This document shows positions 2,168 to 46,994 of a DNA stretch of 46,994 bases, one piece after another. Numbering within the stretch: the stretch's first letter is position 1; every line of letters begins with the position of its first letter. The stretch is taken from assembly GCA_947480335.1 (NCBI GenBank), contig CANKCB010000017.1, forward strand, positions 1 through 46,994, read 5' to 3'. The translations under genes were made by a program, and so were the position numbers. The notes beneath the pieces were generated by a model. The model was not told the DNA's origin and did no database searches. It saw only the letters and a program-made list of their open reading frames with translations. Source of the DNA: Gammaproteobacteria bacterium (GTDB taxonomy: Bacteria > Pseudomonadota > Gammaproteobacteria > Eutrophobiales > Eutrophobiaceae).

Positions 2168-2186
2168 CCAATAGCCCGATAATATA

Positions 2187-2753: not shown

Positions 2754-2785
2754 ACGTTACGCTAATAGATTATAAGGAATAGATT

Positions 2786-3010: not shown

Positions 3011-3030
3011 TTAACCGTTGGGTACCGTGT

Positions 3031-3051: not shown

Positions 3052-3139
3052 GACGGAATTGCCATAGCTGGTCAGTATAGGTCCAGCCAGACAAACTCCG
3101 CAGCGGCAAGTTGAGAGACATACTGTTGAGTGCCAGTGT

Positions 3140-4042: not shown

Positions 4043-4079
4043 GTATGATATGATTAGTCAAAATAGTGAGGAGTAATGT

Positions 4080-4529
4080 ATGGAAGTTATCTTGCTGGAA
4101 AAAGTCCGCAATCTGGGCACCCTGGGTGAGAAAGTACGTGTCAAACCGGGATATGGTCGTAACTTTCTGATTCCGGGAGGCAAGGCTGTCCCCGCGACCA
4201 AACAGAATATTGAAAAATTTGAAGCCAGACGTGCAGAGCTGGAAAAGTCCCAGGCTGAGATTCTGGCCAAGGCAGTTGCCAGGGCTGAAGCAATGAATGG
4301 TCTTGCGGTTACCATTGGCCAGAAAGCCGGTGCGGAAGGCAAGTTGTATGGCTCGGTTGGTACCGTGGATATTTCCGAGGCCGTAACAGCAAAAGGTATT
4401 GAGCTGGCCAGACAGGAAATCCGTTTGCCGGAAGGTCCTTTCCGCAATATTGGTGAATATGAAGTTGAAATACATTTGCATACTGATGTAAATGTAAAAA
4501 TCAGGATTAATATCGTTCCTGAAGAGTAA
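4080..4529 (+). CDS. rplI: 50S ribosomal protein bL9
   Basis: Binds domain V of 23S rRNA near the L1 stalk and limits frameshifting. The 149 residues match the family: N-terminal domain [32 protein letters not shown], a long central helix (about 41-75) and the C-terminal domain. A GTGAGGAG ribosome site lies just before the ATG. Followed by a hairpin at 4551-4569. Confidence 0.97.
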
Positions 4530-4550
4530 TCAGCGTCAGGTATATTTCTG

Positions 4551-4569
4551 CGGGGCCGTTCAGGCCCCG
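4551..4569 (+). terminator. Hairpin after rplI, probable weak terminator
   Basis: CGGGGCC (4551-4557) pairs with GGCCCCG (4563-4569) across a 5-nt loop, 21 nt after the rplI stop. The downstream sequence TAATTCTAAAA is only moderately T-rich, so read-through into dnaB is possible. Confidence 0.5.
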
Positions 4570-4668
4570 TAATTCTAAAAACACATCTGCATAGAGTGTA
4601 GATGATGTGTAAATAATGGACGGCCTGGCTGGTATATCTACAACATTACTGGATCAACACAATCATCT

Positions 4669-6063
4669 ATGCCTGAAATCGTACGCAAGGATTCTGATTC
4701 AGAAACCAAATCACTGAAAATACCGCCGCATTCTATCGAATCAGAGCAGGCGGTACTGGGTGGGTTGTTCCTCGACCCGGAATCATGGATGAAAGTCGCT
4801 GAACGATTACGTCAGGAAGACTTTTACCGCCGCGACCATAAAATCATTTTTAATGCGATTGCCCGGCTTGATGCAGAAGGCCATCCCATCGATTTGGTCA
4901 CCGTTGCGGAATGGCTGGAAAATAACCAGCAACTGGATGATGCCGGCGGGTTGAGTTATCTGTCTGCGCTCGCAGATGCCACTCCCAGTGCCAGCAACAT
5001 TGCTTCCTATGCTGATATTGTACGCAAGCGTTCTATCCTGCGTCAGCTGATCGGTGCAACCTCACAGATCAGTGATACTGTTTTTAATCCATCCGGTCGC
5101 ACCAGCAATGAAATACTCGATTTTGCCGAGCAGACTATATTTGAAATTGCCGAACAGGAAAGCCGCGGTCGCAAGAGTTACCGAAAACTGAACGACTTGC
5201 TGGCGACCACACTGGATCGCATAGACGAGTTGTTTCGCAAGAAAAGCCATATTACCGGCGTTTCCACCGGATTCAGTGATTTCGACAGACAGACAGCCGG
5301 GTTGCAAAAATCAGATCTGATTATTGTTGCTGGAAGACCCTCCATGGGCAAAACCGCGTTTGCGATTAATATTGCCGAACATGCGGTAATCAAGGATCGG
5401 ATATCGGTTGCCGTGTTCAGCATGGAAATGTCCGGCGAGCAGTTATCGATGCGTATGATGTCCTCACTCGGACGAATAGACCAGCACAAGGTAAGAACAG
5501 GTAGGCTCGATGATGAAGATTGGCCGCGTCTGACTTCGGCGGTGGAAATCCTGAAGGATTCAAAATTGTTTATAGATGACACACCTGCTTTGACACCAGC
5601 CGAATTACGGGCCAGGTGTCGACGTATTGCCCGTGAACATGGGCTGGACATGGTCGTGGTTGACTACCTGCAATTGATGCAGGTACCTGGTACCAAGGAA
5701 AATCGTGCAACTGAAATCTCTGAAATTTCCCGTTCGCTCAAAGCAATGGCGAAAGAGTTGAATATTCCAGTCATTGCCCTGTCACAGTTGAATCGTAGTC
5801 TTGAACAACGACCCAACAAACGTCCAGTCATGTCGGACTTGCGTGAATCAGGTGCTATAGAGCAGGATGCAGACGTGATTGTGTTTATCTATCGGGATGA
5901 AGTGTATGACGAACAGAGTCCGGACAAGGGTACTGCAGAAATCATTATCGGTAAGCAACGTAATGGCCCAATCGGTACCGTCAGACTGTCATTCCTCGGT
6001 CGTTACACCCGCTTTGAAAACCATGTCGAAGATAAAGGTTATATGATGGGTCCTCGTGAATGA
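4669..6063 (+). CDS. dnaB: Replicative DNA helicase DnaB
   Basis: Hexameric ring helicase that unwinds DNA at the replication fork. The 464 residues contain the N-terminal DnaB domain (about 20-125), a linker, and the RecA-like ATPase domain (about 190-455). Walker A is GRPSMGKTA with Lys228; Walker B ends at Asp332 (VVVDYLQLM). No intein, although the Walker A region of DnaB is a common intein site. The ribosome site is weak. The stop overlaps the alr start by 4 nt, so the two are translationally coupled. Confidence 0.97.
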   Translation: MPEIVRKDSDSETKSLKIPPHSIESEQAVLGGLFLDPESWMKVAERLRQEDFYRRDHKIIFNAIARLDAEGHPIDLVTVAEWLENNQQLDDAGGLSYLSALADATPSASNIASYADIVRKRSILRQLIGATSQISDTVFNPSGRTSNEILDFAEQTIFEIAEQESRGRKSYRKLNDLLATTLDRIDELFRKKSHITGVSTGFSDFDRQTAGLQKSDLIIVAGRPSMGKTAFAINIAEHAVIKDRISVAVFSMEMSGEQLSMRMMSSLGRIDQHKVRTGRLDDEDWPRLTSAVEILKDSKLFIDDTPALTPAELRARCRRIAREHGLDMVVVDYLQLMQVPGTKENRATEISEISRSLKAMAKELNIPVIALSQLNRSLEQRPNKRPVMSDLRESGAIEQDADVIVFIYRDEVYDEQSPDKGTAEIIIGKQRNGPIGTVRLSFLGRYTRFENHVEDKGYMMGPRE

Positions 6064-7145
6064 GTCGACCCGCCCAGGTCGTAATAAACCTCGCTGCATT
6101 ACGCCATAATTTTTCCAGAGTCCGTGCGCTGGCTCCCGCCAGCAAAATCATTTCCGTGGTCAAGGCCGATGCGTATGGTCATGGACTGGTGCGTGTTGCC
6201 AGTACATTGATCGATACGGACGCATTCGGTGTAGCCTGTCTGGAAGAGGCTATGGAACTACGTGATGCTGGTATCCGCAAACCCATCATCCTGCTGGAAG
6301 GTCCCTACTCAGGTACGGAATTGCAGGATATAACCCGTTTAGATCTGGATATCGTGGTGCATCATCCAGACCAGATTCAAATGCTTGAACAGTATCCGGG
6401 CAAGGCCGCTATTCGTGTCTGGATGAAAGTCGACTCCGGTATGCACCGGCTCGGATTTGATCCTGCAACAGTGGTAGCAAGTTGGCAGCGTCTGAAAAAA
6501 TGTTCCGCAGTACATCCGGATATTCGCCTGATGACGCATCTGGCCAATGCGAGCAATCCGGCTTCACCGATGACTCTGGCGCAGCTGGATACATTCAATA
6601 AAACCTGTGGTGCGATTCAGGCGCAACGCACGATAGCCAACTCGGCCGGCATTGTCGCCTGGCCACAGGCGCATGCGGATTATGTCCGTCCCGGATTGAT
6701 GTTGTATGGTGTTTCTCCGATAGACAACACTGAATCATCAGCATTGGGATTATTACCAGTCATGTCGCTGCAATCGACCCTTATTTCCATCCGTGAGGTG
6801 AAAAAGGGTGAGCCGGTTGGTTATGGTGCAGACTGGTTATGTCCGCAGGACATGCTTGTTGGAATAGTCGCCGCTGGATACGGTGATGGCTTTCCACGAC
6901 ATGGCCGGACCGACACGCCAATTACCATCAATGGCAGGCGTACACGTATTATCGGCAATCCCTCTATGGATATGCTGACGGTAGATTTAAGTACTGTTCC
7001 TGGTGTCAAAACCGGCGATCCGGTCGAACTGTGGGGCAACTCGCTGCCAGTGGAAGAGGTGGCCAAAGCAGCTGGCACAATCGCTTACGAACTACTCTGT
7101 GCAGTGCATAAACGGTTAAGGTTTATTGTGCATGACCAGAGTTAA
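6060..7145 (+). CDS. alr: Alanine racemase
   Basis: PLP enzyme that makes D-alanine for peptidoglycan. 361 residues; the PLP lysine is Lys35 in VVKADAYGHG and the second catalytic base is Tyr274 in AAGYGDGFPR. The N-terminal TIM-barrel and the C-terminal beta domain (from about 240) are both complete. It starts inside the dnaB stop (ATGA), the usual dnaB-alr arrangement in gammaproteobacteria, and its 3' end overlaps the radA start. Confidence 0.96.
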   Translation: MSRPAQVVINLAALRHNFSRVRALAPASKIISVVKADAYGHGLVRVASTLIDTDAFGVACLEEAMELRDAGIRKPIILLEGPYSGTELQDITRLDLDIVVHHPDQIQMLEQYPGKAAIRVWMKVDSGMHRLGFDPATVVASWQRLKKCSAVHPDIRLMTHLANASNPASPMTLAQLDTFNKTCGAIQAQRTIANSAGIVAWPQAHADYVRPGLMLYGVSPIDNTESSALGLLPVMSLQSTLISIREVKKGEPVGYGADWLCPQDMLVGIVAAGYGDGFPRHGRTDTPITINGRRTRIIGNPSMDMLTVDLSTVPGVKTGDPVELWGNSLPVEEVAKAAGTIAYELLCAVHKRLRFIVHDQS

Positions 7146-8502
7146 GATCCGGTTTCAATGTAACAACTGTGGCGCCATTTCTCCGAAATGGACCGGTCAG
7201 TGCCCTGAATGTCAGGCCTGGAATTCACTGACTGAAACTGCGATCGAAAAGGAATCCAAATCAGATCGGATCAAACTGCATCAACAAACACCCGCACAGG
7301 TCAAAACGCTGGATCAGATCGAACCAGGAGAACAGGTCCGTACACTTTCAGGGATCTCCGAGCTGGATCGTGTGCTTGGTGGAGGCATTGTCGGCGGTTC
7401 AGTGATTCTGATAGGTGGTGATCCCGGTATCGGTAAATCCACCCTGTTGTTACAAATGTTTGCCGCGTTAAACGAAAAGTCTGGTTTAAAGACCCTGTAT
7501 ATTTCAGGGGAAGAATCGATAGAGCAGATAGGAATGCGGGCCAGAAGGCTGGATCTGCAACTCGAAAAATTACGCACGCTGACAGAAAACCATCTTGAAC
7601 AAATCTTTTCTATCATCGCTGTGGAAAAACCGCAAATCATGGTCATTGATTCCATCCAGACCGTCTATACCGAGTTACTGCAGTCGGCTCCGGGATCGGT
7701 AGCGCAGATCCGCGAATGCGCGGCGCAGCTGGTACGGTTTGCCAAGCTAACCAATACCACAGTGATTCTGGTAGGACATGTGACCAAGGAAGGCACGCTG
7801 GCTGGGCCGCGCGTGCTCGAACACATGGTCGATACCGTGCTTTATTTTGAAGGTGATACCGGTGGCCGTTACCGCGTGATACGTGCCGTTAAAAACCGGT
7901 TTGGTGCAGTCAATGAGCTGGGTGTGTTTGCGATGACCGACCGAGGTCTGCGCGAGGTGAACAACCCTTCTGCCATCTTTCTTTCCCGTCATGAAGGCAA
8001 TGTAGCCGGTAGTGTGGTCATGGTAACGCGGGAAGGTACACGGCCTTTGTTGGTGGAGGTGCAGGCGCTGGTCGACAATGCACACGGTCACCAACCCAAA
8101 CGGGTCACGGTGGGTCTTGAACAGAACCGGCTGGCGATGTTACTTGCGGTCATGCACCGCCATTCCGGCATCATTACCTATGATCAAGATATTTTTATCA
8201 ATGTCGTTGGAGGCGTGCGCATTAGTGAAACAGGCGCGGATTTACCGATCTTGCTGGCGATATTATCAAGCCTGAAGGATCAACCCTTGCCCAGAGATTT
8301 GGTGGTGTTCGGGGAAGTTGGATTGGCCGGAGAAGTAAGGCCCATTCAGGGTGGTGCTGAACGTTTGAATGAAGCGGTCAAACATGGTTTCAAACAGGCG
8401 ATCATACCGAAAGCGAACCTGCCCAAACAGGCCATCGAAGGACTGAAAATTACTGCCGTATCACGACTAGCTGAAGTGATGGATAATATTCCGGTTGCCT
8501 AG
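7132..8502 (+). CDS. radA: DNA repair protein RadA
   Basis: RecA-related DnaB-type helicase that promotes branch migration in recombinational repair. Zinc finger Cys10-Cys13-Cys24-Cys27, Walker A GGDPGIGKST with Lys102, RadA signature KNRFG at 254-258, and a C-terminal Lon-protease-like domain. I chose the ATG at 7132 (456 residues). A TTG at 7126 is in frame, but would add only two residues and does not fit the family start. It overlaps alr by 14 nt, which implies coupled translation. Confidence 0.95.
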   Translation: MTRVKIRFQCNNCGAISPKWTGQCPECQAWNSLTETAIEKESKSDRIKLHQQTPAQVKTLDQIEPGEQVRTLSGISELDRVLGGGIVGGSVILIGGDPGIGKSTLLLQMFAALNEKSGLKTLYISGEESIEQIGMRARRLDLQLEKLRTLTENHLEQIFSIIAVEKPQIMVIDSIQTVYTELLQSAPGSVAQIRECAAQLVRFAKLTNTTVILVGHVTKEGTLAGPRVLEHMVDTVLYFEGDTGGRYRVIRAVKNRFGAVNELGVFAMTDRGLREVNNPSAIFLSRHEGNVAGSVVMVTREGTRPLLVEVQALVDNAHGHQPKRVTVGLEQNRLAMLLAVMHRHSGIITYDQDIFINVVGGVRISETGADLPILLAILSSLKDQPLPRDLVVFGEVGLAGEVRPIQGGAERLNEAVKHGFKQAIIPKANLPKQAIEGLKITAVSRLAEVMDNIPVA

Positions 8503-31500: not shown

Positions 31501-31576
<76 letters not shown>

Positions 31577-31680: not shown

Positions 31681-31756
31681 GTCCCCATCGTCTAGAGGCC
31701 TAGGACACTGCCCTTTCACGGCGGCAACAGGGGTTCGAATCCCCTTGGGGACGCCA
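31681..31756 (+). tRNA. tRNA-Glu, anticodon TTC
   Basis: 76-nt cloverleaf with encoded CCA: acceptor GTCCCCA / TGGGGAC, D arm with CGTCTAGAGGCCTAGGAC, anticodon loop CTTTCAC (anticodon TTC), T arm CAGGGGTTCGAATCCCCTT. Close to the E. coli tRNA-Glu sequence. Confidence 0.97.
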
Positions 31757-32003: not shown

Positions 32004-33005
32004 ATGAAAATACTGGTAACAGGCGCGGCCGGTTTTATTGGAGCAGCGGTAACTAAAATTCTGCTTGAAAGAGGTGATGAGGTTATCGGCATTGATAATC
32101 TCAATGATTATTATGACGTAAAGCTGAAAACCGACCGGTTAGCGCAACTGACATCCGACAATTTCAAGTTTATTAAATTGGATATCACTGACAAGCAGTC
32201 TTTTGACGCACTTTTTGTCAAAGAATACCCCGAAAAAGTCATTCATCTCGCCGCCCAGGCAGGTGTTCGGTATTCCATTCAGAATCCACAGGCTTACATC
32301 AATTCGAATCTGGTAGGATTTTTGAATGTACTGGAAGCGTGCAGACATCACCAAGTTGCGCATCTTGTCTATGCGTCGTCCAGTTCGGTTTACGGTGCCA
32401 ATACCCTATTACCCTTTTCAATCCATCACAATGTGGACCATCCTGTGTCCTTGTATGCTGCGACCAAAAAGGCGAATGAATTAATGGCGCATACCTACAG
32501 TCATCTTTACCGGTTGCCCACTACTGGCTTGCGTTTCTTCACCGTCTATGGACCGTGGGGACGTCCGGATATGTCATTGTTCCTGTTTACTAAAAAAATC
32601 CTCGCCGGTGAAGCTATTGATGTATTTAACAATGGTCAGCACAGCAGAGACTTCACGTATATCGACGATATAGCAAAAGGAGTTGTACGCGTAGTTGATC
32701 GTGTTGCCTGTCCTCAAACTGACTGGAATGGTAACAACCCTGATCCGGGCACCAGCCTTGCCCCCTATAGATTATATAATATTGGTAATCACAGTCCTGT
32801 CGAGTTGATGCGCTTTATTGAAATTCTGGAAGAGTGTCTGGGTAAGAAGGCACAGAAGAATTTCCTGCCCATGCAAGCGGGTGATGTGCCAGCCACCTAT
32901 GCCGACGTTGATGACTTGATTCGTGATACGGGATTTGCACCTGATACACCAATTGAAGTCGGCATTACACGATTTGTAGATTGGTATCGCAGCTATTACG
33001 GCTAG
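32004..33005 (+). CDS. UDP-glucuronate 4-epimerase-like SDR epimerase
   Basis: 333-residue extended short-chain dehydrogenase. NAD motif TGAAGFIG at 7-14; [13 protein letters not shown] typical of the CapI/LpsL branch; catalytic Ser-Ser-Ser and YAATKKANE (Tyr-x-x-x-Lys). Predicted to interconvert UDP-glucuronate and UDP-galacturonate. UDP-GlcA would be supplied by the Ugd encoded two genes downstream. First gene of a three-gene set (4-bp and 13-bp gaps). Confidence 0.9.
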
Positions 33006-33009
33006 TCAT

Positions 33010-34296
33010 ATGACACATAAACGAAAGATTTCTGTAACTGGATTAGGCTATGTGGGTTTGCCCGTTGCTGTTGCCTTTGGTAAAACTGCGCGGGTGATTG
33101 GATTTGATATAAGCGAAAATCGCATGTCCGCTCTGAAAGCTGGACTGGATATAACGAGGGAAATCAGCCAGTCTGAATTGAATGAGGCCGATATTCTGTT
33201 TACAAGTGATCCGGCTGAATTAACCCAGGCTGACTTTCATATTGTTACAGTACCAACGCCAATAAATCATGCCAAACTACCCGATTTGACTGCGGTAATT
33301 AATGCTACAACTACTTTGGGCAAGATAATCAAGTCAAATGATATTGTGGTATACGAATCCACTGTTTATCCGGGCGTTACCGAAGAAGTGTGTATTCCAG
33401 TGCTTGAAAAAGAATCCGGAATGCGAGCTGGTGTGGATTTTTTTGTGGGATATTCACCTGAACGAATTAATCCAGGTGACAAGGAACATGTTTTTTCAAA
33501 AATTACCAAGGTTGTTTCTGCACAGACCCGTGAAAGTCTGGATATTATTGCTGACGTTTATGGTTCTGTTGTTACCGCAGGTATACATCGTGCTCCAAGT
33601 ATCAAGGTGGCGGAAGCTGGCAAGATTATCGAAAATACCCAGCGTGATCTGAATATCGCGCTGATGAATGAATTGGCAATCATCTTTGATAAGCTGGGTA
33701 TTGATACTGGAGATATTCTGGCGGCGGCAAGTACCAAGTGGAATTTTTTACCTTTTAAACCTGGTCTGGTTGGTGGTCATTGTATCGGGGTGGATCCTTA
33801 TTATCTCACCTATAAGGCAGAACAAACCGGTTATAGCCCTGAAGTGATACTGGCTGGAAGACGCATAAACGATGGGATGGGTACCTATGTGGCAATGCAG
33901 ATAATCAAGGCTTTGATTAAAAACGGGTTTGCAGTCAAGGGGAATGTAATATCCATTCTGGGTTTTACATTCAAGGAAAATGTCCCGGATGCCCGTAACA
34001 CACGGGTGATAGATATGGCTAAAACGCTTCAGGAATTTGAGATGGAAGTGCAGCTGCATGATCCACTCGCAAACAAAGGGGAAGCGTTTGATGAATATGG
34101 TATAAAACTGCTAGACCAGCCACAGTTGAAGGCAGGGCAGGCGGTAATTCTGGCTGTTGCTCATGAGCAATATAAACAGGCAGGATGGCAATGTATTCTG
34201 CCATTATTGGTTGGTAACAAGGGGGTGGTGTTCGATGTTACTGGATGTCTGGACAGAAATGATTTGCCACCCGAAATAAATTTGATTCGTTTTTAA
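33010..34296 (+). CDS. TviB-like UDP-N-acetylhexosamine 6-dehydrogenase
   Basis: 428-residue nucleotide-sugar dehydrogenase. NAD motif GLGYVGLPVAVAFG at the N-terminus; catalytic cysteine in GGHCIGVDPYYLTYKA (about residue 257). The text VVYESTVYPGVTEEVCIPVLE is typical of the TviB/WbpO branch, which oxidises UDP-GlcNAc or UDP-GalNAc to the uronic acid. Substrate preference within that branch cannot be read by eye. The shorter N-terminus and the HCIGVDP motif separate it clearly from the neighbouring Ugd. Confidence 0.9.
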   Translation: MTHKRKISVTGLGYVGLPVAVAFGKTARVIGFDISENRMSALKAGLDITREISQSELNEADILFTSDPAELTQADFHIVTVPTPINHAKLPDLTAVINATTTLGKIIKSNDIVVYESTVYPGVTEEVCIPVLEKESGMRAGVDFFVGYSPERINPGDKEHVFSKITKVVSAQTRESLDIIADVYGSVVTAGIHRAPSIKVAEAGKIIENTQRDLNIALMNELAIIFDKLGIDTGDILAAASTKWNFLPFKPGLVGGHCIGVDPYYLTYKAEQTGYSPEVILAGRRINDGMGTYVAMQIIKALIKNGFAVKGNVISILGFTFKENVPDARNTRVIDMAKTLQEFEMEVQLHDPLANKGEAFDEYGIKLLDQPQLKAGQAVILAVAHEQYKQAGWQCILPLLVGNKGVVFDVTGCLDRNDLPPEINLIRF

Positions 34297-34309
34297 CAGG
34301 GCCGTTTAA

Positions 34310-35623
34310 ATGAAAGTAACAATAATTGGAAGTGGTTACGTTGGCTTGGTTTCAGGAACCTGCTTTGCTGAATTCGGAGCAGAAGTAAGCTGTATAGATG
34401 TTGATGCCAGTAAGATTGCGCGGTTAAACAAAGGAGAAATTCCCTTGTATGAACCAGGGTTAAATGAACTGGTTGCCAAGAATGTCAGTCAGGGTCGATT
34501 ACGATTTTCAGATCAGTATGACACTACCATAGGTAGCAGCGATCTTATTTTTATCGCAGTTGGCACGCCTTCGCGACATGGTGATGGACATGCGGATTTA
34601 AGTTATGTCTATCAGGCCGCCAGAGATATAGCACCATACTTGCAGGGTTACACAGTCGTTGTTGACAAGTCGACTGTTCCCGTCGGTACGGCCAGAAATG
34701 TGAAGCGCATCATCGCTGAAGCAAATCCTGCTGCTGATTTTGATGTGGCCTCCAATCCGGAATTTTTACGGGAAGGTGCCGCAATTACAGACTTCATGAG
34801 ACCGGATCGTGTCGTATTGGGAGTTGAAAATGAACGGGCTCTTGCTGTTTTACGTGAGTTATACAGACCATTAAACCTCATTGAAACTCCTATTGTTGCC
34901 ACCGATCTGGAAAGTGCTGAATTAATCAAATATGCCAGCAATGCGTTTTTGGCGACTAAGATCAGTTTTATAAACGAGATGTCCGTGTTGTGTGAAGCAG
35001 TTGGCGCTGATGTCCATGCAATAGCAAAAGGTATGGGGCTCGATGGGAGAATAGGGCGGAAGTTCCTGCATGCTGGTCCAGGCTTTGGTGGATCGTGTTT
35101 TCCAAAAGATACAAAAGCTTTGGTACGAATTGCACAGGAAAACGGCGTGTCCAGTCGTATCGTTGAAGCAGTAATGGAAGTCAACGAAGCGCAAAAAGCC
35201 AGAATGATCAGCAAGATCCGAAAAGCACTGGGTGGTGATCTTGCAGGCAAGGTAATCTCTGTAATAGGTCTGACATTCAAGCCGGAAACAGATGACATGC
35301 GAGATGCTCCTGCTTTATCGATTCTGCCGAAATTGGTTGAGGGTGGCGCATTAATACAAGCGCATGATCCTCATGGTATGCATGAAGCAAAAAAACTTTT
35401 ACCAGACAGCATAGTGTATGTTGAGAGTATGTATGATGTATTTAACAATGCTGACGCAGTTGTTCTACTGACTGAATGGAACGAATATCGTGGTCTTGAC
35501 TTGAAACGGATCAAAAATTCCATGCGTTCAAATAAATTTATTGATTTGCGCAATGTTTATGTCCCTGCACAGATGCAGGCAGAAGGCTTTGATTACTATT
35601 GTGTTGGTCGTCAGAACCGATAA
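34310..35623 (+). CDS. ugd: UDP-glucose 6-dehydrogenase
   Basis: 437 residues. NAD motif GSGYVGLVSGTCFAEFG at 7-23, YEPGL, and the catalytic cysteine in GPGFGGSCFPKDTKAL (about residue 261). Oxidises UDP-glucose twice to UDP-glucuronate. C-terminal nucleotide-sugar domain ends in RNVYVPAQMQAEGFDYYCVG. Follows the TviB-like gene by 13 bp; both 6-dehydrogenase types are therefore encoded in tandem. Confidence 0.94.
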   Translation: MKVTIIGSGYVGLVSGTCFAEFGAEVSCIDVDASKIARLNKGEIPLYEPGLNELVAKNVSQGRLRFSDQYDTTIGSSDLIFIAVGTPSRHGDGHADLSYVYQAARDIAPYLQGYTVVVDKSTVPVGTARNVKRIIAEANPAADFDVASNPEFLREGAAITDFMRPDRVVLGVENERALAVLRELYRPLNLIETPIVATDLESAELIKYASNAFLATKISFINEMSVLCEAVGADVHAIAKGMGLDGRIGRKFLHAGPGFGGSCFPKDTKALVRIAQENGVSSRIVEAVMEVNEAQKARMISKIRKALGGDLAGKVISVIGLTFKPETDDMRDAPALSILPKLVEGGALIQAHDPHGMHEAKKLLPDSIVYVESMYDVFNNADAVVLLTEWNEYRGLDLKRIKNSMRSNKFIDLRNVYVPAQMQAEGFDYYCVGRQNR

Positions 35624-35670: not shown

Positions 35671-36171
35671 ATGAAATCCTGGTTCCTATTACAAGCCAAA
35701 CCCAGACAGGAAAATCTGGCCAAGCTGAATCTGGAAAGGCAGGGCTATACAGTTTACCTTCCTCTTGCACCAGTACGACGCAAAATGCGTGGCAAGGTGA
35801 CGATTGAGTCTGCCCCAATGTTTCCGCTTTATCTTTTTATAAATTTGCAGGAAGGTACTGACGACTGGGGACCAATACGATCGACAATCGGTATTGCCAG
35901 ACTGGTACGGTTTGGCCAGATACCAGCACGAATTCCTGACCAATTAATTTTAATGTTAAAAAGTCGTGAAGATGAAAAAGGTGTTCAACGATTACCTATT
36001 AAGACAGTTGAGCCTGGCGACAAGGTTCGTATCGCTGCCGGACCTTTTGAGGGGTATGAAGCTATCGTTCAGTCCACCTCATCCCGATCCAGGATAGTGT
36101 TGTTGATGAAGATTATAGAAAGTTATATCAAGGTAGAAATTGATCAGGATAGTCTTGAGACTGTTAGCTAA
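35671..36171 (+). CDS. rfaH: RfaH-type transcription antiterminator (NusG paralogue)
   Basis: 166 residues. N-terminal NGN domain MKSWFLLQAKPRQENLAKLN, with GYTVYLPLAPVRRKMRGK and FPLYLFINL; C-terminal KOW region EPGDKVRIAAGPFEGYEAIV. RfaH-type proteins are recruited to RNA polymerase paused at an ops site and suppress polarity in long surface-polysaccharide operons. An exact ops sequence lies at 36966-36977. I chose ATG 35671, where family similarity begins; the in-frame extension to 35599 overlaps ugd. It is placed between the sugar-nucleotide genes and the rhamnose operon. Confidence 0.9.
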   Translation: MKSWFLLQAKPRQENLAKLNLERQGYTVYLPLAPVRRKMRGKVTIESAPMFPLYLFINLQEGTDDWGPIRSTIGIARLVRFGQIPARIPDQLILMLKSREDEKGVQRLPIKTVEPGDKVRIAAGPFEGYEAIVQSTSSRSRIVLLMKIIESYIKVEIDQDSLETVS

Positions 36172-36209
36172 TCCCATCTAGTTCATTTACAACAATAATT
36201 TGCCATACC

Positions 36210-36226
36210 TGTTCACAATATGAACA
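36210..36226. promoter_or_regulatory. Operator-like palindrome 1 of the regulator gene
   Basis: TGTTCACAATATGAACA: perfect 6-bp arms (TGTTCA / TGAACA) around 5 bp. It contains the -35 box (TTCACA, 36212-36217) of the candidate promoter. A near-identical palindrome lies exactly 30 bp downstream. Confidence 0.72.
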
Positions 36227-36240
36227 GTCTCCTTTATACT
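36212..36240 (+). promoter_or_regulatory. Sigma70 promoter of the winged-helix regulator
   Basis: TTCACA (36212-36217; five of six), 17-bp spacer, TATACT (36235-36240; five of six). Expected start near A36247, three bases before ATG 36250, so the mRNA would be practically leaderless. The -35 box is inside palindrome 1 and the start point inside palindrome 2. Confidence 0.65.
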
Positions 36241-36256
36241 GTTCAGAATATGAACG
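36240..36256. promoter_or_regulatory. Operator-like palindrome 2 of the regulator gene
   Basis: TGTTCAGAATATGAACG: same element as 36210-36226 with two differences (centre base and last base). The 30-bp spacing is close to three turns of DNA, so two protein dimers could bind the same face. It covers the predicted transcription start and the chosen ATG. Confidence 0.68.
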
Positions 36257-36858
36257 CAAAAAACCGCGAAGAATCCTTAACCCTGGGCATACTTGAATCC
36301 ATTGAGGAAAAGAGTGATGTCACCCAGCGTCATCTTGCCAATCAGCTTGGGGTGGCATTGGGATTGGTCAATTCCTATTTGAAACGCTGTGTGCGCAAGG
36401 GCCTGATTAAAATCGAACAGGCGCCCGCAAATCGTTACTTGTACTATCTTACCCCCCGTGGTTTTGCTGAAAAAAGCAGGCTTACAGCCGAATATTTATA
36501 CGTTTCATTTGATTTTTATCGCCGCGCCAGTCAGTCCTGTTCTGAGGTTTTCGAACAATGCCGCCACAATCACTATCAGCGTATCCTGCTAGCCGGTGTC
36601 TCGGAGTTGGCAGAGATTGCCAGTTTACGAGCAAGAGAAAAAGGTATGAATATCATAGCGATAGTTGATCCACAGACTAAACTTAACGAGTTTATTGGGA
36701 TTCCCGTTTGGTCCAACGCAGATAAGGCAATCCAGGTGGATGCCTGCGTAATTACCAGCTTGAATTCATCTATGTATCTTTCTGATTATATGGGAAAATA
36801 TATCGACAAAAACAGGGTGTTTATACCGGACATCCTGGGGATTAAATACGAGTCCTGA
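36250..36858 (+). CDS. EPS-associated MarR-type winged-helix regulator
   Basis: 202 residues from the chosen ATG. N-terminal winged helix (about 5-75): QRHLANQLGVALGLVNSYLKRCVRKGLIKIEQ is the recognition region of the EPS-associated MarR-type family. It is followed by a C-terminal alpha/beta part (about 105-200; RILLAGVSELAEIASLRAREKGMNIIAIVDP) that looks like a nucleotide-binding or CoA-binding-like Rossmann fold, so it may sense a metabolite. ATG 36220 would add 10 residues (MNSLLYTVQN) but lies upstream of the predicted transcription start; I prefer 36250. Probably autoregulated through the two palindromes. Between rfaH and rfbB, so a likely regulator of this locus. Confidence 0.82.
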   Translation: MNAKNREESLTLGILESIEEKSDVTQRHLANQLGVALGLVNSYLKRCVRKGLIKIEQAPANRYLYYLTPRGFAEKSRLTAEYLYVSFDFYRRASQSCSEVFEQCRHNHYQRILLAGVSELAEIASLRAREKGMNIIAIVDPQTKLNEFIGIPVWSNADKAIQVDACVITSLNSSMYLSDYMGKYIDKNRVFIPDILGIKYES

Positions 36859-36965
36859 AGCTGCAAGTATCAGGTATGGCGTGGTGAGTAATTGTGTTGG
36901 TAAGGGAAGATTAACAACGGACTGCATAAAGATTTAAACCTATACGGAGTCAACTGGCACTGTAG

Positions 36966-36977
36966 GGCGGTAGCGTG
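36966..36977 (+). promoter_or_regulatory. ops element (RfaH recruitment site) in the rfbB leader
   Basis: GGCGGTAGCGTG, identical at all 12 positions to the E. coli ops core, on the coding strand 40 nt before the rfbB start. In E. coli, RNA polymerase pauses at ops and exposes it on the non-template strand for RfaH. The RfaH-like gene lies about 0.8 kb upstream on the same strand. The remaining part of 36859-37016 shows no clear promoter. Confidence 0.9.
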
Positions 36978-37016
36978 CCTGAAGATACAACAATTAATGT
37001 ATAAGAGTAAAAAATT

Positions 37017-38102
37017 ATGAATATGGAAAAGACAATTCTGGTCACGGGTGGCGCAGGGTTCATAGGTTCAAATTTTGTACTGGATTGGTTAAAACAGCAT
37101 AACGACACCATTATCAATCTGGATGCGTTGACTTATTCAGGCAACCTGAACAACCTCGCGTCTGTAGCACAGGATAATCGCCATATTTTTGTCAAAGGGG
37201 ATATAGGTGATAAAACCCTGGTGCAAGCATTGTTACAACAATATCAACCATATGCGGTTATAAACTTCGCGGCTGAAAGTCATGTAGACCGCTCAATTCT
37301 GAATCCGGAAGCATTTGTTGAGACGAATATAGTAGGTACATTTCGTCTGTTGAATGAAACACTGCGTTATTGGGAAAAACTCTCTGGTGAGCAAAAACAT
37401 CAGTTCCGTTTTCTGCACGTTTCTACGGATGAAGTATATGGATCTTTGAAGCCGGATGATCCGTTGTTTTCTGAAACAAAACAATTTGAACCTAACAGTC
37501 CATACTCCGCATCGAAAGCGGCTTCGGATCACTTTGTCCGTGCCTATCATCATACATATGGTTTGCCGGTGTTGACTACCAATTGTTCTAATAACTACGG
37601 TCCTTACCAGTTTCCTGAAAAACTGATTCCATTGATAATCACCAATGCCTTGTCATGGAAAAACTTACCCATTTACGGGGATGGTTTGAACATACGTGAT
37701 TGGTTATACGTAGGTGACCATTGTCATGCCATACGTACGGTATTAACCAGCGGAATACCAGGGCAGACATATAATATTGGTGGCATGAATGAAATGACTA
37801 ATATCGATATCGTGCGGCATATCTGCCGAATTCTGGATAATTTGAAACCTGCGAAACAGGGTAAGTATGAAGATCTGATTACCTATGTAAAAGACAGGCC
37901 TGGTCATGACAGACGCTATGCGGTTGATATCAGCAAAATCAATGCTGAGTTGGGTTGGCAACCACAGGAAACCTTCCAGACAGGAATAGAGAAGACTGTG
38001 TCCTGGTATTTACAAAATCAGGAATGGATACAGGGCGTGATGTCAGGCTCCTACAGGGAATGGATCGAAAAAAATTATGAGGATAGGAAGACAGAAAAAT
38101 GA
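37017..38102 (+). CDS. rfbB: dTDP-glucose 4,6-dehydratase
   Basis: 361-residue SDR enzyme, second step of dTDP-L-rhamnose synthesis. NAD motif [32 protein letters not shown], and catalytic [22 protein letters not shown]. Start ATG 37017; an ATG two codons later is also possible. First gene of rfbBACD, transcribed through the ops leader. Its 3' end overlaps rfbA by 4 nt. Confidence 0.96.
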
Positions 38103-38986
38103 TGACTAAAAGAAAAGGAATCATTCTTGCGGGTGGTTCAGGAACCAGGCTTTATCCGGTAACACATATCCTTTCCAAACAGCTCTTACCAATATATGAC
38201 AAGCCTATGATTTATTATCCCTTGTCCACATTAATGAGTGCCGGTATTCGAGACATACTGGTTATATCAACACCGGACGACACACCCTTATTCAATCGCT
38301 TGTTGGGTGACGGAAAACCATGGGGCATTAATATTTCCTATGCAGTACAACCAAAGCCGGAAGGACTGGCTCAGGCCTTTATTATCGGCAAGGAGTTTAT
38401 AGGCACCGATCCTGCCGCCTTGATTCTGGGAGATAACGTATTTTATGGTCATAACTTGCAGGACTTGTTGTTTCGTGCAATGAGTCGTGAGCAGGGCGCC
38501 ACCACCTTTGCCTACCATGTGAACGATCCGGAACGCTATGGGGTCGTCGAATTTGATGATAATGGCAAGGCCTTATCGATTGAGGAAAAGCCGAAAGAGC
38601 CGAAGAGTAATTATGTCGTAACAGGACTGTATTTTTATGACAATGATGTGGTTGAGATTGCCAGTCAAATCAAACCCTCAGCTCGCGGTGAACTCGAAAT
38701 CACCGATGTAAACAGTGTCTATCTGCGTCAGAACCGTTTGGCAGTGGAAGTGATGAGTCGTGGATTTGCCTGGCTGGATACCGGCACCCATTCTTCCTTG
38801 CTGGAAGCTAGCTTGTTTGTGGAAACCATTGAGAAGCGACAAGGCTTCAAAATTGCCTGTCCGGAAGAAGTAGCCTATCGAAATGGATTTATAGATGCAC
38901 AACAAGTGGAATCACTGGCTGCACCTTTACTCAAAAGTAACTATGGCCAATACCTGCTTAGCGTGATTAAAGAAAAAGTATTTTAA
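38099..38986 (+). CDS. rfbA: Glucose-1-phosphate thymidylyltransferase
   Basis: 295 residues; activates glucose-1-phosphate with dTTP. Nucleotide-binding [22 protein letters not shown], substrate motif [14 protein letters not shown], metal-binding LGDNVFYGH, and [19 protein letters not shown]. Two consecutive ATG codons at 38099 and 38102; the first overlaps the rfbB stop. Confidence 0.96.
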
Positions 38987-39531
38987 TGAATATTATACCT
39001 ACAAGCATTCCTGATGTATTGATTCTGGAACCCAAAGTGTTTCGTGACAGTCGTGGCTTTTTTATGGAGAGTTGGAACCGGAAGGTATTTCAGAAACTCA
39101 CTGGCATTGATAAGGAATTCGTACAGGATAATCGTTCACAATCTGCACAAAATGTTTTACGTGGGCTTCATTACCAGATTAAGCAACCACAGGGCAAACT
39201 GTTCAGTGTGACACGCGGTAGTGTATTTGATGTGGCTGTGGATTTACGTAAAAGTTCATCGACATTCGGTAAATGGGTGGGTGTTGAGCTCTCGGATGAA
39301 AATAACAGACAGATATGGATACCTGAAGGATTTGCTCATGGGTTTTTAGTGTTATCAGAGCACGCAGATTGCTTTTATAAAACGACAGATTATTACTCGC
39401 CAGAGAATGAAAGATGTCTGAAATGGAATGACACGGACATTAAGATCAACTGGCCTATAAATGGTGAGCCTCTCGTATCAACAAAGGATCAGGCAGGGCT
39501 TTCATTCGGAGAAGCCGAAATCTTCCCATGA
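38986..39531 (+). CDS. rfbC: dTDP-4-dehydrorhamnose 3,5-epimerase
   Basis: 181-residue cupin-fold epimerase. Family text LEPKVFRDSRGFFMESWN, QDNRSQSAQNVLRGLHYQ (catalytic His), GSVFDVAVDLRKSSSTFGKW, and PEGFAHGFLVLSE. It starts with 1-nt overlap of the rfbA stop (TAATG). Confidence 0.95.
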   Translation: MNIIPTSIPDVLILEPKVFRDSRGFFMESWNRKVFQKLTGIDKEFVQDNRSQSAQNVLRGLHYQIKQPQGKLFSVTRGSVFDVAVDLRKSSSTFGKWVGVELSDENNRQIWIPEGFAHGFLVLSEHADCFYKTTDYYSPENERCLKWNDTDIKINWPINGEPLVSTKDQAGLSFGEAEIFP

Positions 39532-40421
39532 GAATTTTGCTGACAGGTCAGAACGGTCAGGTAGGTTGGGAGTTGGCACGCAGTTTATTGCCGTTAGGTA
39601 GTGTAATCACTTTAGACAGGCATCAGCTGGACATGATGCATCCGGAGACTTGCCGAGCAATTATTCAACAACACAAGCCAGAAGTGATTGTCAATGCAGC
39701 AGCCTACACAAATGTCGATCTGGCTGAAGATGAAATAGAACTGGCCAATACCATCAATGCGACAGCCACGGGGATACTGGCAGAAGAAGCGCGAAAAGTT
39801 AACGCGCTGTTGATTCATTACAGCACGGATTATGTCTTTGACGGAACCAAGAGTACGGCTTATGCAGAAGATGATGTTACAAACCCGATTAATGCCTACG
39901 GACGCAGCAAATTATCGGGTGAGCAGGCCATTCAAAAAACCGGGGCAGATCATCTGATATTCCGCACTTCCTGGGTGTATTCCGCACGCAGGACCAACTT
40001 TCTGCTCAGTATGCTGAAATTAATGAAAACACGGGAAACATTACGCATCGTTAACGACCAGACTGGCGCACCTACCTGGTCCAGGTCTATTGCTGATATT
40101 ACCGCCCATGTTATCAAGCAAGCGTGGACAGAACGTCATCAGGGCAGATTTAAATCAGGTATCTTCAATCTTTCTGGTTCAGGTAATACAACCTGGTATG
40201 AATTTGCCAAAAGCATTGCAGAGCTAGCCAAAGCGGATGCTCAATTCAAACAGTCATTGATGATTCGCTCCATAGAACCGATCACAACAGCAGAATATCC
40301 CAGTAAGGCAAAGCGTCCATTGAATTCGAAGATGAGTCACGAAAAAATCGTGAATCGATTTAATATTGTCATGCCTGACTGGCAGGAGTGTCTGCGATTG
40401 TGTATGCAGGATGTGGTATGA
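39528..40421 (+). CDS. rfbD: dTDP-4-dehydrorhamnose reductase
   Basis: 297-residue SDR reductase, last step to dTDP-L-rhamnose. N-terminal MRILLTGQNGQVGWELARSL, STDYVFDGTK, catalytic YGRSKLSGEQA, and FRTSWVYS. The start overlaps rfbC by 4 nt, and its stop overlaps a 40-residue ORF by 4 nt. Confidence 0.95.
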   Translation: MRILLTGQNGQVGWELARSLLPLGSVITLDRHQLDMMHPETCRAIIQQHKPEVIVNAAAYTNVDLAEDEIELANTINATATGILAEEARKVNALLIHYSTDYVFDGTKSTAYAEDDVTNPINAYGRSKLSGEQAIQKTGADHLIFRTSWVYSARRTNFLLSMLKLMKTRETLRIVNDQTGAPTWSRSIADITAHVIKQAWTERHQGRFKSGIFNLSGSGNTTWYEFAKSIAELAKADAQFKQSLMIRSIEPITTAEYPSKAKRPLNSKMSHEKIVNRFNIVMPDWQECLRLCMQDVV

Positions 40422-40821: not shown

Positions 40822-43359
40822 CTAATTCCTAATGACTACTTTGCAACCAAGATGTTCAAACCAGGCATGACCGTCTTGCACCATGCGGAAATCTGCTATC
40901 AGGTTTTGATGGCCTACTCCAAGTCCTTTCAGATTGAGCTGTGAAAGCGGGAAGCGAAGCTCTTTCGAGGTGCCTTGGGGTATCGACAAGGCCTCGCTGC
41001 GAGTGACTTTGCCAGTAACGTACTCCGGTGTTCCGGTAGGCAGTCTCAAACCGTCGTCCCATCTGAGGAGTGAGCCGTCCAGGCTGCGCAGATGAACGCC
41101 GATCTGCAGAGGAAATTTTCCTTCATTGAACGTCCAGTCAAAGTGGCTGGTATTCGCAAGCGTGACTAACAATGTGTCATTCGCCGCACCGGTCGAAGCT
41201 GCACGCGCGACGGAGCACTGAAACTCTCCTCGCATGTCTGAAATCGGCAAGATAGGCTTTGTTCCGATGCCGCGATCCATGTTGGCAACGGTAAAGAATA
41301 CTTCGAAATGTGTCGCCCGCTCAATGACCAATGCGCTTTTATCGTTGTTCTTTTCGAGCAGGTATTTTAATGCCGGTCGATTGACCAGTCGCGGCAGAGT
41401 GCTTTTGAGCAGCCTAGACGTGTCAGAGATCACAAGCTCTTCAACATCTTTGTAGGATTTATCGTAAACAAGGCGGTAACCAGGATCGTTCAATCTGAAA
41501 AACGCAAGTCTGCTGGCTTCATCTTCGATAGGCGCGGCACTTGTGCGTTGCATGAGCGCATTTCTCACTCGCTGGTATTCGACCGGTGACACTACACGCC
41601 TGTCCACTACAACAGCTTTAAAACCGGCAGCCTGCACCTCCGTAAGCAGCTGATCAATTGGCATGCGCGATAACCGTAAATGCCAGTCATCGACCGGACT
41701 ATTTTTGGATGCACCGTTACTCCATCGCAGCGCGGTAGAGTGTAAATAAAGTCGAATATGAGCCAATGAACCCCATCCATAGTAATCGCTGTCTGACAGC
41801 CACTGCGAATACGGATACTGATAAACCATCGCGCCAGGAGGAAGTTTCCCCTCAATTGTCTTAACAAATTTTTTCTCAGACAAGAAACGATTTCGAATCT
41901 CTTCACTGCCCTTATCGATGTTATTTGGCAATTGGTCGTATAGACTCAGGGTTGCGATTAGCAAAGTTAGGCCAACCAAAAACACCTTTTTTCTACCGTA
42001 TGCCTGTTTGAGAATTACCGTTAGAGCGGCACCAGCGCCTACGTAGAGTACAAAGATAAGAAAGAGTGGGAAACGGTCATACGCTCGGATAGTCGGATAT
42101 ACAAGCGCAATCAATGCACCAATACCGCCTGCAATTGAACAAAGAAAAATAAAGAGAGCAAGCGCAACAGAAGCCCATATCAGCTTATCTTCAGGTATGG
42201 CGCCTTTGTTTAAATCGCTATCGTTTGCAGATTTGCGTAAAGCCGGCACAATAAGTAGCGCCAGTGCAGTGAAAAAAAGAATTGATCCCAGAAAACCAAG
42301 AGGAGCATAGATTGGCCCAGTCTTGTATTGACGAGCCGCATCGCTGGTTTCAGTTATCTTTTTTCCGAGATCAGCAAGGCTTTTAATTCGATGATTTGGA
42401 GTTGGCGCTATCAACAATTTGAGACTAACCGAATAAACTTCTGCCTCAAAAGGATGTTTGACCAGCGCCGGGTCCGTAATGCCATTAGGGGCAAATTCTT
42501 CAGGATGGCTATATTTGTAGGCACCAAGAGGCCAAGCCAGTACAAGCGCCACGGTCATTAGTGTTATTATATAGATCGCGGGTACCAGCAAACTGGCTGG
42601 TTTTTTCATGTCGCCGGAAAGTGCCCTGACAACGGTCGCGAAACCAAGCAGCAACAGCGTAAAAAATGCGTAGTAGCCATCCGATACTGCGATGAGCACT
42701 ATAAAAATTAGACCCAAAAAGAACTTTGACGATGAAAGCGCTTCTTTAATCGCCATTTTGCTGGTCTTGGCAGGGCGCGAAAAATACTTAGAGAATTCAC
42801 CCGTCATAATCCAAAAAACAGCGACCAAAGCTAAAGGAACGGTGAAGTAATTTGAAAGGAATGAGTAAATAAAATAGTTGAATCGATAGCCAAGTAGCGA
42901 AAATAATACCCCAATGCATAAAGCTGGAAGTCGCGCCACGCCCAGTAATCTGCAAGAGAAAAATGAGGTCAAGGAAATAAGCGCGAAGTTTATCAAGTAA
43001 TAGACTTGCTGGATTTCGATAGGGTCGAGAAGCAGCTTGGAGAGACCGAGCATCAGCAACGAATGTAGAGCGCTTGTTTGTGCTGCCGCGTTATTGTGCC
43101 AGTGTGCAACGTCTGGCGCTCCTAAAAATGGATTGTTTAAGACCCAGCCTGTATCGACCACCATCTTAGTAAGAATGAGTTGCCAAGTTTCGTCGGCATT
43201 TTTGTCTCGGTAATCCAGTGGAATTGATAGATCCCAGTGCCATAAGTTCATGAAACTCATAGCGATTAAAACTGGAACGATTGCAGCTAATGCAGGAACA
43301 AGAAACTGTTTCAGAACCTTGCGATAGCGAAAGATATTGACTCTAGGGCTGTTATGCAA
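40822..43359 (-). CDS. Large multispanning membrane protein, probable GT-C-type glycosyltransferase
   Basis: 845 residues. About 11-12 membrane helices in residues 20-480, then a soluble, probably periplasmic part (about 490-845) with no recognised domain. After the first helix, a large loop carries acidic residues (LDYRDKNADETWQL), the place where GT-C transferases using polyprenyl-phosphate sugars have their catalytic Asp/Glu. Its neighbours are a GtrA flippase and a GtrB-type polyprenyl-phosphate glycosyltransferase. In seroconversion clusters that pair is always joined by a dissimilar membrane transferase, which suggests this role here. YfhO-type proteins are the alternative. Family not identified. 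Confidence 0.72.
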   Translation of the reverse strand: MHNSPRVNIFRYRKVLKQFLVPALAAIVPVLIAMSFMNLWHWDLSIPLDYRDKNADETWQLILTKMVVDTGWVLNNPFLGAPDVAHWHNNAAAQTSALHSLLMLGLSKLLLDPIEIQQVYYLINFALISLTSFFSCRLLGVARLPALCIGVLFSLLGYRFNYFIYSFLSNYFTVPLALVAVFWIMTGEFSKYFSRPAKTSKMAIKEALSSSKFFLGLIFIVLIAVSDGYYAFFTLLLLGFATVVRALSGDMKKPASLLVPAIYIITLMTVALVLAWPLGAYKYSHPEEFAPNGITDPALVKHPFEAEVYSVSLKLLIAPTPNHRIKSLADLGKKITETSDAARQYKTGPIYAPLGFLGSILFFTALALLIVPALRKSANDSDLNKGAIPEDKLIWASVALALFIFLCSIAGGIGALIALVYPTIRAYDRFPLFLIFVLYVGAGAALTVILKQAYGRKKVFLVGLTLLIATLSLYDQLPNNIDKGSEEIRNRFLSEKKFVKTIEGKLPPGAMVYQYPYSQWLSDSDYYGWGSLAHIRLYLHSTALRWSNGASKNSPVDDWHLRLSRMPIDQLLTEVQAAGFKAVVVDRRVVSPVEYQRVRNALMQRTSAAPIEDEASRLAFFRLNDPGYRLVYDKSYKDVEELVISDTSRLLKSTLPRLVNRPALKYLLEKNNDKSALVIERATHFEVFFTVANMDRGIGTKPILPISDMRGEFQCSVARAASTGAANDTLLVTLANTSHFDWTFNEGKFPLQIGVHLRSLDGSLLRWDDGLRLPTGTPEYVTGKVTRSEALSIPQGTSKELRFPLSQLNLKGLGVGHQNLIADFRMVQDGHAWFEHLGCKVVIRN

Positions 43360-45870: not shown

Positions 45871-46994
45871 TCAAACATCCGTCCACGTCTTATCAGGCAC
45901 AAGCCAAAAGTCATCAGGCACCTTGGAAAGTATAGGATGGGTATCAAAAGCTGTAGTCGAAGTCAGCGGAAAAAACTTACCAATGGCTATATCGGATCTG
46001 ACAAAAAAAGCATTAAAACCGCAGGTTCCAATGGCACACAAGGTGTAGCCTCGGTTGGTAAGAAGTTTCTCCCATGCAGGTAAGCTGACGCTTCCAGATT
46101 GCGGCCATCTTTTGCTGAATTTTTTTCTATCGAATTGAACTACAGAGTGTTTGTCTCTAAAGAGTTTCTCAAACTCAACGACAAGTACTCGAGGCCTGAC
46201 GGCGGTCATGCTACTGATGACTGCATAATCACCCCCATCAATGTCGATGACCATAAGATCTGGCTCTTCCTCATTGCAGACATCCCTAAGCACTTGGTCG
46301 ATATTCTCTGGACTAATCGATTTCTGGACAATTAATGGTGAAAAATAACCTTGCCTTCCGTTGACTTTCATATGAAAGTGTTTGGTAGCATAGTCTCGTG
46401 CAAAGAAATACTGCATCTTGTCACATTCCACTTGGTCAATTTCGAAAATTGCACCATGCCATCCGTGATTAACAATCAAATTAGTTGACAAGTTCTCAGG
46501 CATACCTAGATCCGATTCACTACAGTTGCTGCCAATTTCGATGACATATTGATTGATCTGACCAATGTGGCTAAAAATCCTTAGTAGCATTCCGTCCTCA
46601 TCGTTTTGTGAAAACACACGAAAACCGCTATCCAATAGATCTTTGTAGCCAATTATGGGTGTTGATGAAGCCTGCCAAATAGCCATAAGGTATTTGTGCA
46701 TAATGGCATCATCGTTGGGCAGAAAGTTACGCCGCAATCTATGATTTAACATAGCCAACTGACTTGAGGAAAATCCACCACCCCATTTCTCTTCTATGTT
46801 TTTAAGTTGCGATTTCAGATGATCTAAATCTAGTTTCAATGAATCTAACGAGGCAACGACATGATAAATCTGTTCTGTCTGTTTATTAAGCTCAACATCT
46901 TGAGCACCTAACGAGGCAACGACATGAGAAATCTGTTCTGTCTGTTTATTAAGCTCAACATCTTGAGCACCTAACGAGGCAACGACATGATAAA
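45871..46994 (-). CDS. FkbM-like methyltransferase with N-terminal coiled-coil repeats (5' end outside the window)
   Basis: The frame is open from the window's right edge to a stop at 45871, 374 codons visible. The N-terminal part (46845-46994) encodes a 21-residue repeat. The coiled coil continues to about 46790 (LDSLKLDLDHLKSQLKNIEE). The C-terminal domain has a FkbM-type fold: VFSQNDEDGMLLRIF, YVIEIGSNCSESDLGMPENL, LMVIDIDGGDYAVISS. No in-frame ATG occurs in the visible part; a TTG at 46839 is the only usual-type start near the domain, but the open repeat frame upstream makes a much longer protein likelier. Probably methylates a surface sugar. AT-richer than the housekeeping genes. Confidence 0.75.
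   Translation of the reverse strand, partial: YHVVASLGAQDVELNKQTEQISHVVASLGAQDVELNKQTEQIYHVVASLDSLKLDLDHLKSQLKNIEEKWGGGFSSSQLAMLNHRLRRNFLPNDDAIMHKYLMAIWQASSTPIIGYKDLLDSGFRVFSQNDEDGMLLRIFSHIGQINQYVIEIGSNCSESDLGMPENLSTNLIVNHGWHGAIFEIDQVECDKMQYFFARDYATKHFHMKVNGRQGYFSPLIVQKSISPENIDQVLRDVCNEEEPDLMVIDIDGGDYAVISSMTAVRPRVLVVEFEKLFRDKHSVVQFDRKKFSKRWPQSGSVSLPAWEKLLTNRGYTLCAIGTCGFNAFFVRSDIAIGKFFPLTSTTAFDTHPILSKVPDDFWLVPDKTWTDV
46845..46994. repeat. 63-bp tandem repeat, 2.4 copies to the window edge
   Basis: Units begin at 46845, 46908 and 46971 (CTAACGAGGCAACGACATGA). The first two copies are complete; copies differ at a single base (GATAAA versus GAGAAA, giving Tyr or Ser). 63 bp is 21 codons, so gain or loss of a unit keeps the frame. 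The array runs out of the window, so its true copy number is unknown. Confidence 0.93.

Follow-up and report, generated by a model that had tools for sequence, protein, structure and literature searches.

The window, as we call the whole stretch of 46,994 nt of gammaproteobacterial DNA analysed here, carries on its forward strand an rfaH-type gene for a NusG paralogue of 166 amino acids (35671–36171). Directly 5' of it lie genes for an NDP-sugar epimerase and for TviB-like and Ugd-like dehydrogenases (32004–35623), the gap between ugd and rfaH being 47 bp with the strand shared. On the 3' side follow a gene for a MarR_EPS-like repressor of 202 amino acids (36250–36858), a predicted hairpin (36943–36964), an exact copy of the ops element (36966–36977, GGCGGTAGCGTG) and the dTDP-rhamnose genes rfbB, rfbA, rfbC and rfbD (37017–40421), which are the likely target operon. 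The end of ops is 39 nt from the ATG of rfbB (37017). The rfbB product scores 496 bits against TIGR01181 (cut-off 365); the family scan covered this gene, while rfbA, rfbC and rfbD were named by inspection of their ORFs. Two tRNA genes (31501–31573 and 31681–31753) are found just 5' of the epimerase–TviB–ugd–rfaH genes, and two proteins encoded on the reverse strand near a gtr-like cluster (40822–43359 and 45871–46839) have no NCBIfam match at E 0.001.

An earlier sequence-only reading had recognised the RfaH-type gene and a perfect ops on the coding strand of rfbBACD. Both assignments hold, as the protein exceeds the curated cut-off of TIGR01955 (153 vs 144.5 bits) and the 12-mer is exact. 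It is the sole match with fewer than two mismatches in the window, and the epimerase–TviB–ugd genes are, as had been stated, not preceded by any ops within one mismatch. In the assembly of 2,422,416 bases there is one exact copy, compared to none for a reversed-pattern control. When one mismatch is allowed, the genome has 10 matches, the exact one included, vs 12 for the control. Since the one-mismatch copies are thus at chance level, the predicted regulon consists of one site, which fits the earlier suggestion that control is limited to the rhamnose genes; further RfaH targets in the genome were dropped as candidates for the same reason. A search for other NusG paralogues gave no second member of the NusG-domain family in the assembly. 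The assembly is 95% complete, and the search returned the RfaH-type gene only, the housekeeping nusG not being found either, probably because of a gap in the assembly.

What the sequence-only reading overlooked is the hairpin before ops and the repressor gene of ca 200 codons (36250–36858) together with its operators. Twin GTTCAN5TGAAC palindromes lie 5' of marR, 30 bp apart, and overlap a predicted sigma-70 promoter (TTCACA-17-TATACT, 10/12, at 36212–36240). Operator 1 (36211–36225) covers the -35 hexamer (36212–36217), and operator 2 (36241–36255) has the start codon inside it. The promoter scan taken as a whole gave 16 sites vs 20.7 ± 5.0 in shuffled sequences, i.e. no excess, and the support for the promoter therefore comes from conservation. 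The exact twins, identically spaced and placed 39 bases ahead of the marR start, are present in all 16 family genomes with a marR homologue that were examined, the window included. Among the marR loci used for comparison (the best 80 of 244 relatives from a scan of genome contigs), 17 have the exact twins and 61 have a palindrome overlapping the start, 19 being without one by the rule used. In many relatives with one operator, the first palindrome is, by inspection, replaced by a TTGAC -35 sequence.

The repressor begins with Met-Asn in 15 of 15 proteins of one alignment (A1), as the operator dictates. With the start codon inside operator 2 and nine bases past the -10 hexamer, the predicted 5' leader is only a few bases long, and no Shine-Dalgarno match was seen before marR. 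The marR mRNA is accordingly predicted to be near-leaderless, and marR is probably autorepressed via the palindromes. Elsewhere in the genome there are three GTTCAN5TGAAC sites vs two for the reversed pattern, and for this reason further targets of the repressor are not claimed. A second promoter between marR and rfbB was also considered, but the promoter scans gave no scoring site there. The ribosome site of rfbB is weak; this is not distinctive, as several other genes of the window also have weak ones.

We now turn to the repressor protein. Its N-terminal half scores 67 bits against TIGR04176 (MarR_EPS), under the curated cut-off of 88, and also matches Pfam HTH_24; all 71 sequences of the repressor set that were scanned match TIGR04176 at E 0.01 or better. 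The AlphaFold2 model was calculated from an alignment (A2) of 71 of 80 listed sequences, the rest having been thinned for similarity without a fixed rule. In the model, a long helix leads into a Rossmann-like C-terminal domain that is predicted with confidence, most of residues 91–190 having a block pLDDT above 90. The winged-helix half is poor (block pLDDT 40–60 over residues 1–60), and because of this low confidence no fold claim is built on it. In VIA-align comparisons, the C-terminal domain matches periplasmic-type ligand receptors (Z up to 10.8), Rex (3wg9_B, Z 10.0, rmsd 2.6, 93 residues), succinyl-CoA synthetase alpha chains (Z about 10) and WbaP (8t53, Z 9.5, rmsd 2.3, 86 residues). 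On the predicted model these matches are ties, and the sole reason for singling out Rex below is that it, likewise, combines a winged helix with a Rossmann-like domain. Rex is not among the sequence matches of the repressor, a sequence search of the PDB gave no significant relative (best E 0.074), and Foldseek with the repressor model gave no match reaching E 0.001. A ligand of nucleotide type is plausible from the predicted fold.

The second part of the locus is the leader between marR and rfbB. RNAfold gives a hairpin at 36943–36964, one nucleotide 5' of ops. In 59 leaders, a stem one base before ops has z 14.4 relative to 30 dinucleotide shuffles, and the stem score peaks at this 1-nt spacing, the overlapping registers of 0 to 7 bases having z 3.0–12.1. 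For the 40 bases before ops, the folding energy averages −10.4, compared to −7.4 ± 0.3 in shuffles. A sequence-only alignment (A4) was made of 58 of the 59 leaders, L162 being omitted as near-identical to L159. In this alignment, a five-pair stem can pair in 93.3% of cells vs 29–65% for slid versions, and it has 19 doubly changed cells vs 4.2 ± 1.7 after shuffling, a number reached by none of 500 shuffles. Double changes occur at four of the five pairs, which is also reached by 64 of the 500 shuffles. It should be pointed out that the five-pair stem was chosen after inspection of the leaders, and this is why the slid and shuffled controls matter. RNAalifold on the same alignment returned two invariant pairs within ops only, with no covariation, and did not predict the stem; we attribute this to gaps caused by loops of differing length. 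Selection on a hairpin before ops, beyond the 12-nt definition of the element, is suggested by these results.

Apart from the base of the 3' arm and ops itself, which stands out by the selection of the leaders, the sequence feature that stands out is a CCTGAA extension adjoining the 3' side of ops (36978–36983 in the window). Its positions are conserved at 66–76% each in the 58 leaders, which had been chosen for at most one ops mismatch, and it is not present in the two E. coli K-12 leaders that were read.

A stem-loop one base before ops is the geometry of JUMPstart elements. The window has this geometry, but scores 16.6 bits against the Rfam model RF01707, below the gathering cut-off of 35, and the cut-off is reached by none of 15 tested marR-type loci with ops; the E. 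coli K-12 rfb and waaQ leaders score 60 and 55.2 bits. The idea that the pre-ops hairpin is unreported was rejected, as JUMPstart elements are reported to contain a conserved stem-loop (passages of Weinberg et al. 2010, PMC2864571) and the E. coli rfb and waaQ leaders have the hairpin. In the window, the stem ends 12 nt before U11, the pause base of E. coli polymerase, and a distance of 12 nt from stem to pause is about the usual spacing for hairpin-stabilised pauses. For E. coli, passages of PMC11001881 describe polymerase as pausing at U11 of ops and the ops complex as distinct from a hairpin-stabilised one, and RfaH suppresses hairpin-stabilised pausing according to passages of PMC6391919.

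The arrangement of marR and ops was then compared across the best 80 of 244 relatives, and six loci that end less than 400 bp after marR were kept in the denominators. An exact ops occurs within 400 bp after marR in 51 of these 80 loci vs 1 of 5,800 control windows, i.e. other 400-bp windows from the same loci, and an ops with at most one mismatch in 58 vs 3 of the 5,800. For the same best 80 of 244, the distance from marR to ops has a median of 72 bp (47–344, n=58), while that from rfaH to ops has a median of 794 bp (677–8,501, n=48). The sequence-only reading had treated rfaH and ops as the tight pair. This is not what the distances give: the tight unit is, judged by them, marR followed by ops. 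In the window the gap from marR to ops is 107 bp, and in the 14 family genomes measured it is 48–107 bp from the marR stop. Ops is present in 48 of the 53 loci that have rfaH upstream on the same strand; the other 27 of the best 80 of 244 (22 without rfaH and 5 with rfaH downstream) include 10 with ops. There is no ops within one mismatch in 22 of these 80 loci, 5 of them with rfaH upstream. The genes past ops vary between loci, which fits a portable control cassette. Of the contigs in the 80-locus set, at least 13 are also in that of the family, and the two sets are therefore not independent.

In the family, ops with no or one mismatch is found 3' of marR on the same strand in 15 of the 17 RfaH-positive genomes. 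Of the remaining two, one has a contig that ends (G009) and the other (G072) is without such an ops, although a covariance model built from the 58 leaders picks up a diverged copy of the element there at 25.2 bits. In the class sample, short single-domain MarR_EPS genes are seen in the order marR–rfaH–element in G189, G289 and G301, and in the order element–marR–rfaH in G175 and G292.

The same covariance model was used to examine the co-occurrence of the element with RfaH. RfaH is over the cut-off in 17 of 53 family genomes, and the model matches at E ≤0.001 in 16 of these 17 vs 3 of the 36 RfaH-negative genomes (Fisher p 1e-9). In the class sample, where RfaH is over the cut-off in 55 of 274 genomes, there are matches at E ≤1e-4 in 33 of the 55 vs 3 of the 219 others (p 1.6e-24), and two of these three have an RfaH just under the cut-off, at 141 and 143 bits. 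Since the model comes partly from the same lineages, its matches are no independent discovery, and it is their association with RfaH that is informative. At E 0.01 the model matches in 60 of the 274 class genomes; many of the weaker matches may owe their score to ops-like sequence alone. The rfb and waaQ elements of E. coli are scored weakly, at 20–21 bits. Some class-sample genomes (G162, G183, G278, G309 and G107) have two to six matches at E 0.01, which suggests several RfaH targets per genome.

The long repressor is present in 31 class genomes, and in six of these the match to the RfaH model is at NusG level or missing. At E 1e-4 the element is absent from all six, one (G191) having a 20.4-bit match on another contig. 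There are exceptions to the pattern: one genome has RfaH and the long marR without the element (G165), one has the element 5' and not 3' of marR (G044), two have the element without a detected RfaH (G015 and G067), and in G029 the match is marginal. Taken over the comparisons, the link from RfaH through ops to the rfb genes, which the sequence-only reading had drawn from the E. coli mechanism, is strongly supported at the level of sequence.

The E. coli mechanism itself, however, cannot be carried over whole, since residues used for ops reading and autoinhibition are replaced in the window RfaH. Its best PDB match is E. coli RfaH (2oug, E 9.8e-23), and an alignment with E. coli RfaH and 74 relatives shows that K10, R23, Q24, T72 and G74 are retained, while R16 is changed to L, H20 to N, E48 to A, N70 to R, R73 to I and F130 to V. 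The 75 aligned proteins correspond to 62 distinct ones, most of them from loci with ops. R73 occurs in none of the 62 and R70 in 58, while H20 is found in 4, E48 in 26 and F130 in 40; V130 is seen in the window protein only. According to passages of PMC5995543, E. coli RfaH is recruited much less well when K10, H20 or R73 is changed to alanine, and passages of PMC6391919 report that F130V abolishes its ops dependence. Without H20, R73, E48 and F130, the window RfaH may read ops differently. As far as the alignments go, ops is constant and it is the reader that has changed, and our hypothesis is that R70 takes the place of R73. The AlphaFold2 model, for which an alignment (A3) of 55 of 59 listed sequences was used (the rest thinned for similarity without a fixed rule), has the C-terminal domain as strands at low confidence (block pLDDT 55–73), and the window RfaH is tentatively predicted to be without autoinhibition.

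Sequences, conservation, covariation and co-occurrence are the observations from which a mechanism can be proposed. Starting from the repressed state, a repressor made up of a winged helix and a Rossmann-like sensor domain would shut its own promoter, as the conserved sequences indicate, by sitting on the two palindromes, one of which covers the -35 region and the other the start site together with the start codon. Upon its release, polymerase would make a near-leaderless marR transcript and, 107 bp past marR, would meet a JUMPstart-type element with hairpin, one spacer base and ops. There it would pause at the hairpin and ops and, by homology, take up RfaH, and the RfaH-loaded polymerase would then carry on through rfbBACD. 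Binding, promoter use, pausing and antitermination are here what we infer from sequence. We consider it likely that the locus controls a surface-polysaccharide operon as a module with two checkpoints, repressor-gated initiation and RfaH loading. The recurrence of this layout in dozens of bacteria, most of them uncultured, suggests a single switch that is checked twice, at the start of transcription and during elongation.

A more specific version is put forward tentatively, and we would give it somewhat less than an even chance. It is that of an undescribed, widespread two-stage switch for surface polysaccharides, in which a Rex-like ligand-sensing autorepressor would control the initiation of a leaderless transcript. 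Close behind the repressor gene, a pause at ops, assisted by the hairpin, would load a cis-encoded, non-autoinhibited RfaH that reads the same 12 bases with other residues (R70 for R73). If this is true, ops would be a composite of a hairpin ending 12 nt before U11 and a DNA signal, unlike the ops pause of E. coli, which is described as distinct from the hairpin-stabilised one.

Other explanations have to be weighed against the two-checkpoint module. The operon could be fed mainly by readthrough from ugd–rfaH, with RfaH loaded in cis and marR a bystander with its own promoter. That rfaH begins 47 bp after ugd on the same strand speaks for such readthrough, and cis loading, for which the predicted lack of autoinhibition in the window RfaH would be suitable, is proposed in passages of a 2026 preprint (PMC13015549) for monomorphic RfaHs beside their operons. 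However, in six relatives (G006, G010, G013, G024, G068 and G070) rfaH is 2–6 kb from marR and ops is still behind marR, and the window has a promoter match and operators between rfaH and marR. We find this scenario unlikely as the main route, although readthrough from ugd–rfaH could also feed ops. Another option is that RfaH and ops alone matter, and that marR_EPS is a separate autoregulated gene standing beside ops by operon inheritance. Three loci (L112, L131 and L145) indeed have a twin-operator marR without ops or rfaH in the locus, but the order and spacing of marR and ops persist though the genes past ops differ, and rfaH and the element have short MarR_EPS genes as neighbours in further gene orders too (G189, G175, G289 and G292), which makes this option improbable to us.

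The least favourable view of the element is that the 12-mer matches ops by chance or is a consensus pause of general type that works without RfaH. Counting alone would allow for chance, as exact ops gives 24 matches in 20 of the 53 family genomes vs 17 for the reversed pattern, and ops fits the E. coli consensus pause according to passages of PMC5995543. On the other hand, its placement after marR is more than 1,000-fold over the control windows in the best 80 of 244 loci, and this, together with the co-occurrence with RfaH in the class sample, refutes a chance match; the covariation of the hairpin also speaks against this view of the element. We find it extremely improbable, and the two-checkpoint module is the reading that we retain.

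RfaH, ops, JUMPstart and a neighbourhood of RfaH with an HTH regulator are already known. The ordered module, its operator and an ops-linked RfaH without R73, E48 and F130 look new; no description of the marR–ops order or of the module operator was found in the open-access literature, subscription papers being mostly outside the scope of the search. The module matters because it allows the joint prediction of repressor, operator, hairpin, ops and target in one gene neighbourhood, including at loci that the Rfam model misses. Two questions can also be put to it as a natural experiment, namely if R73 is required for recognising ops and if autoinhibition is required for recruitment to be ops-specific. 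The second arises because the window RfaH has V130, a substitution that makes E. coli RfaH independent of ops (passages of PMC6391919). Passages of PMC7593976 describe RfaH as being without common gene neighbours, and say that recruitment is understood in detail for E. coli RfaH alone.

Several known systems can be compared with the locus. In the cluster CL4 of Wang et al. 2020, passages of PMC7593976 associate RfaH with an HTH regulator, and RfaH is found there near this regulator and envelope genes, as at the window locus; the term "MarR" is absent from the main text of that paper, and its section 11 gives no ops placement for CL4. The sequence-only reading had taken an rfaH beside its targets as unusual, but passages of the same paper describe RfaH near envelope-biogenesis genes as not unusual outside the E. 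coli-like cluster. With E. coli RfaH, the window protein shares the curated family model, but its gene, unlike that of E. coli, adjoins the likely target. The repressor resembles MarR_EPS (TIGR04176) in its winged-helix part and differs from it by falling under the cut-off, by being twice as long as the model and by the added Rossmann-like C-terminal domain. The redox-sensing Rex repressors combine a winged helix with an NAD(H)-binding Rossmann domain, and the window repressor may have a similar build, the likeness in fold being that of its C-terminal domain, to which folds other than Rex are equally close. Finally, the JUMPstart element (RF01707) of E. coli rfb and waaQ consists of a stem-loop, one spacer base and GGCGGUAGCGUG before surface-polysaccharide genes, as in the window, whereas the window element has another stem and loop sequence, has CCTGAA after ops and is placed behind a repressor gene.
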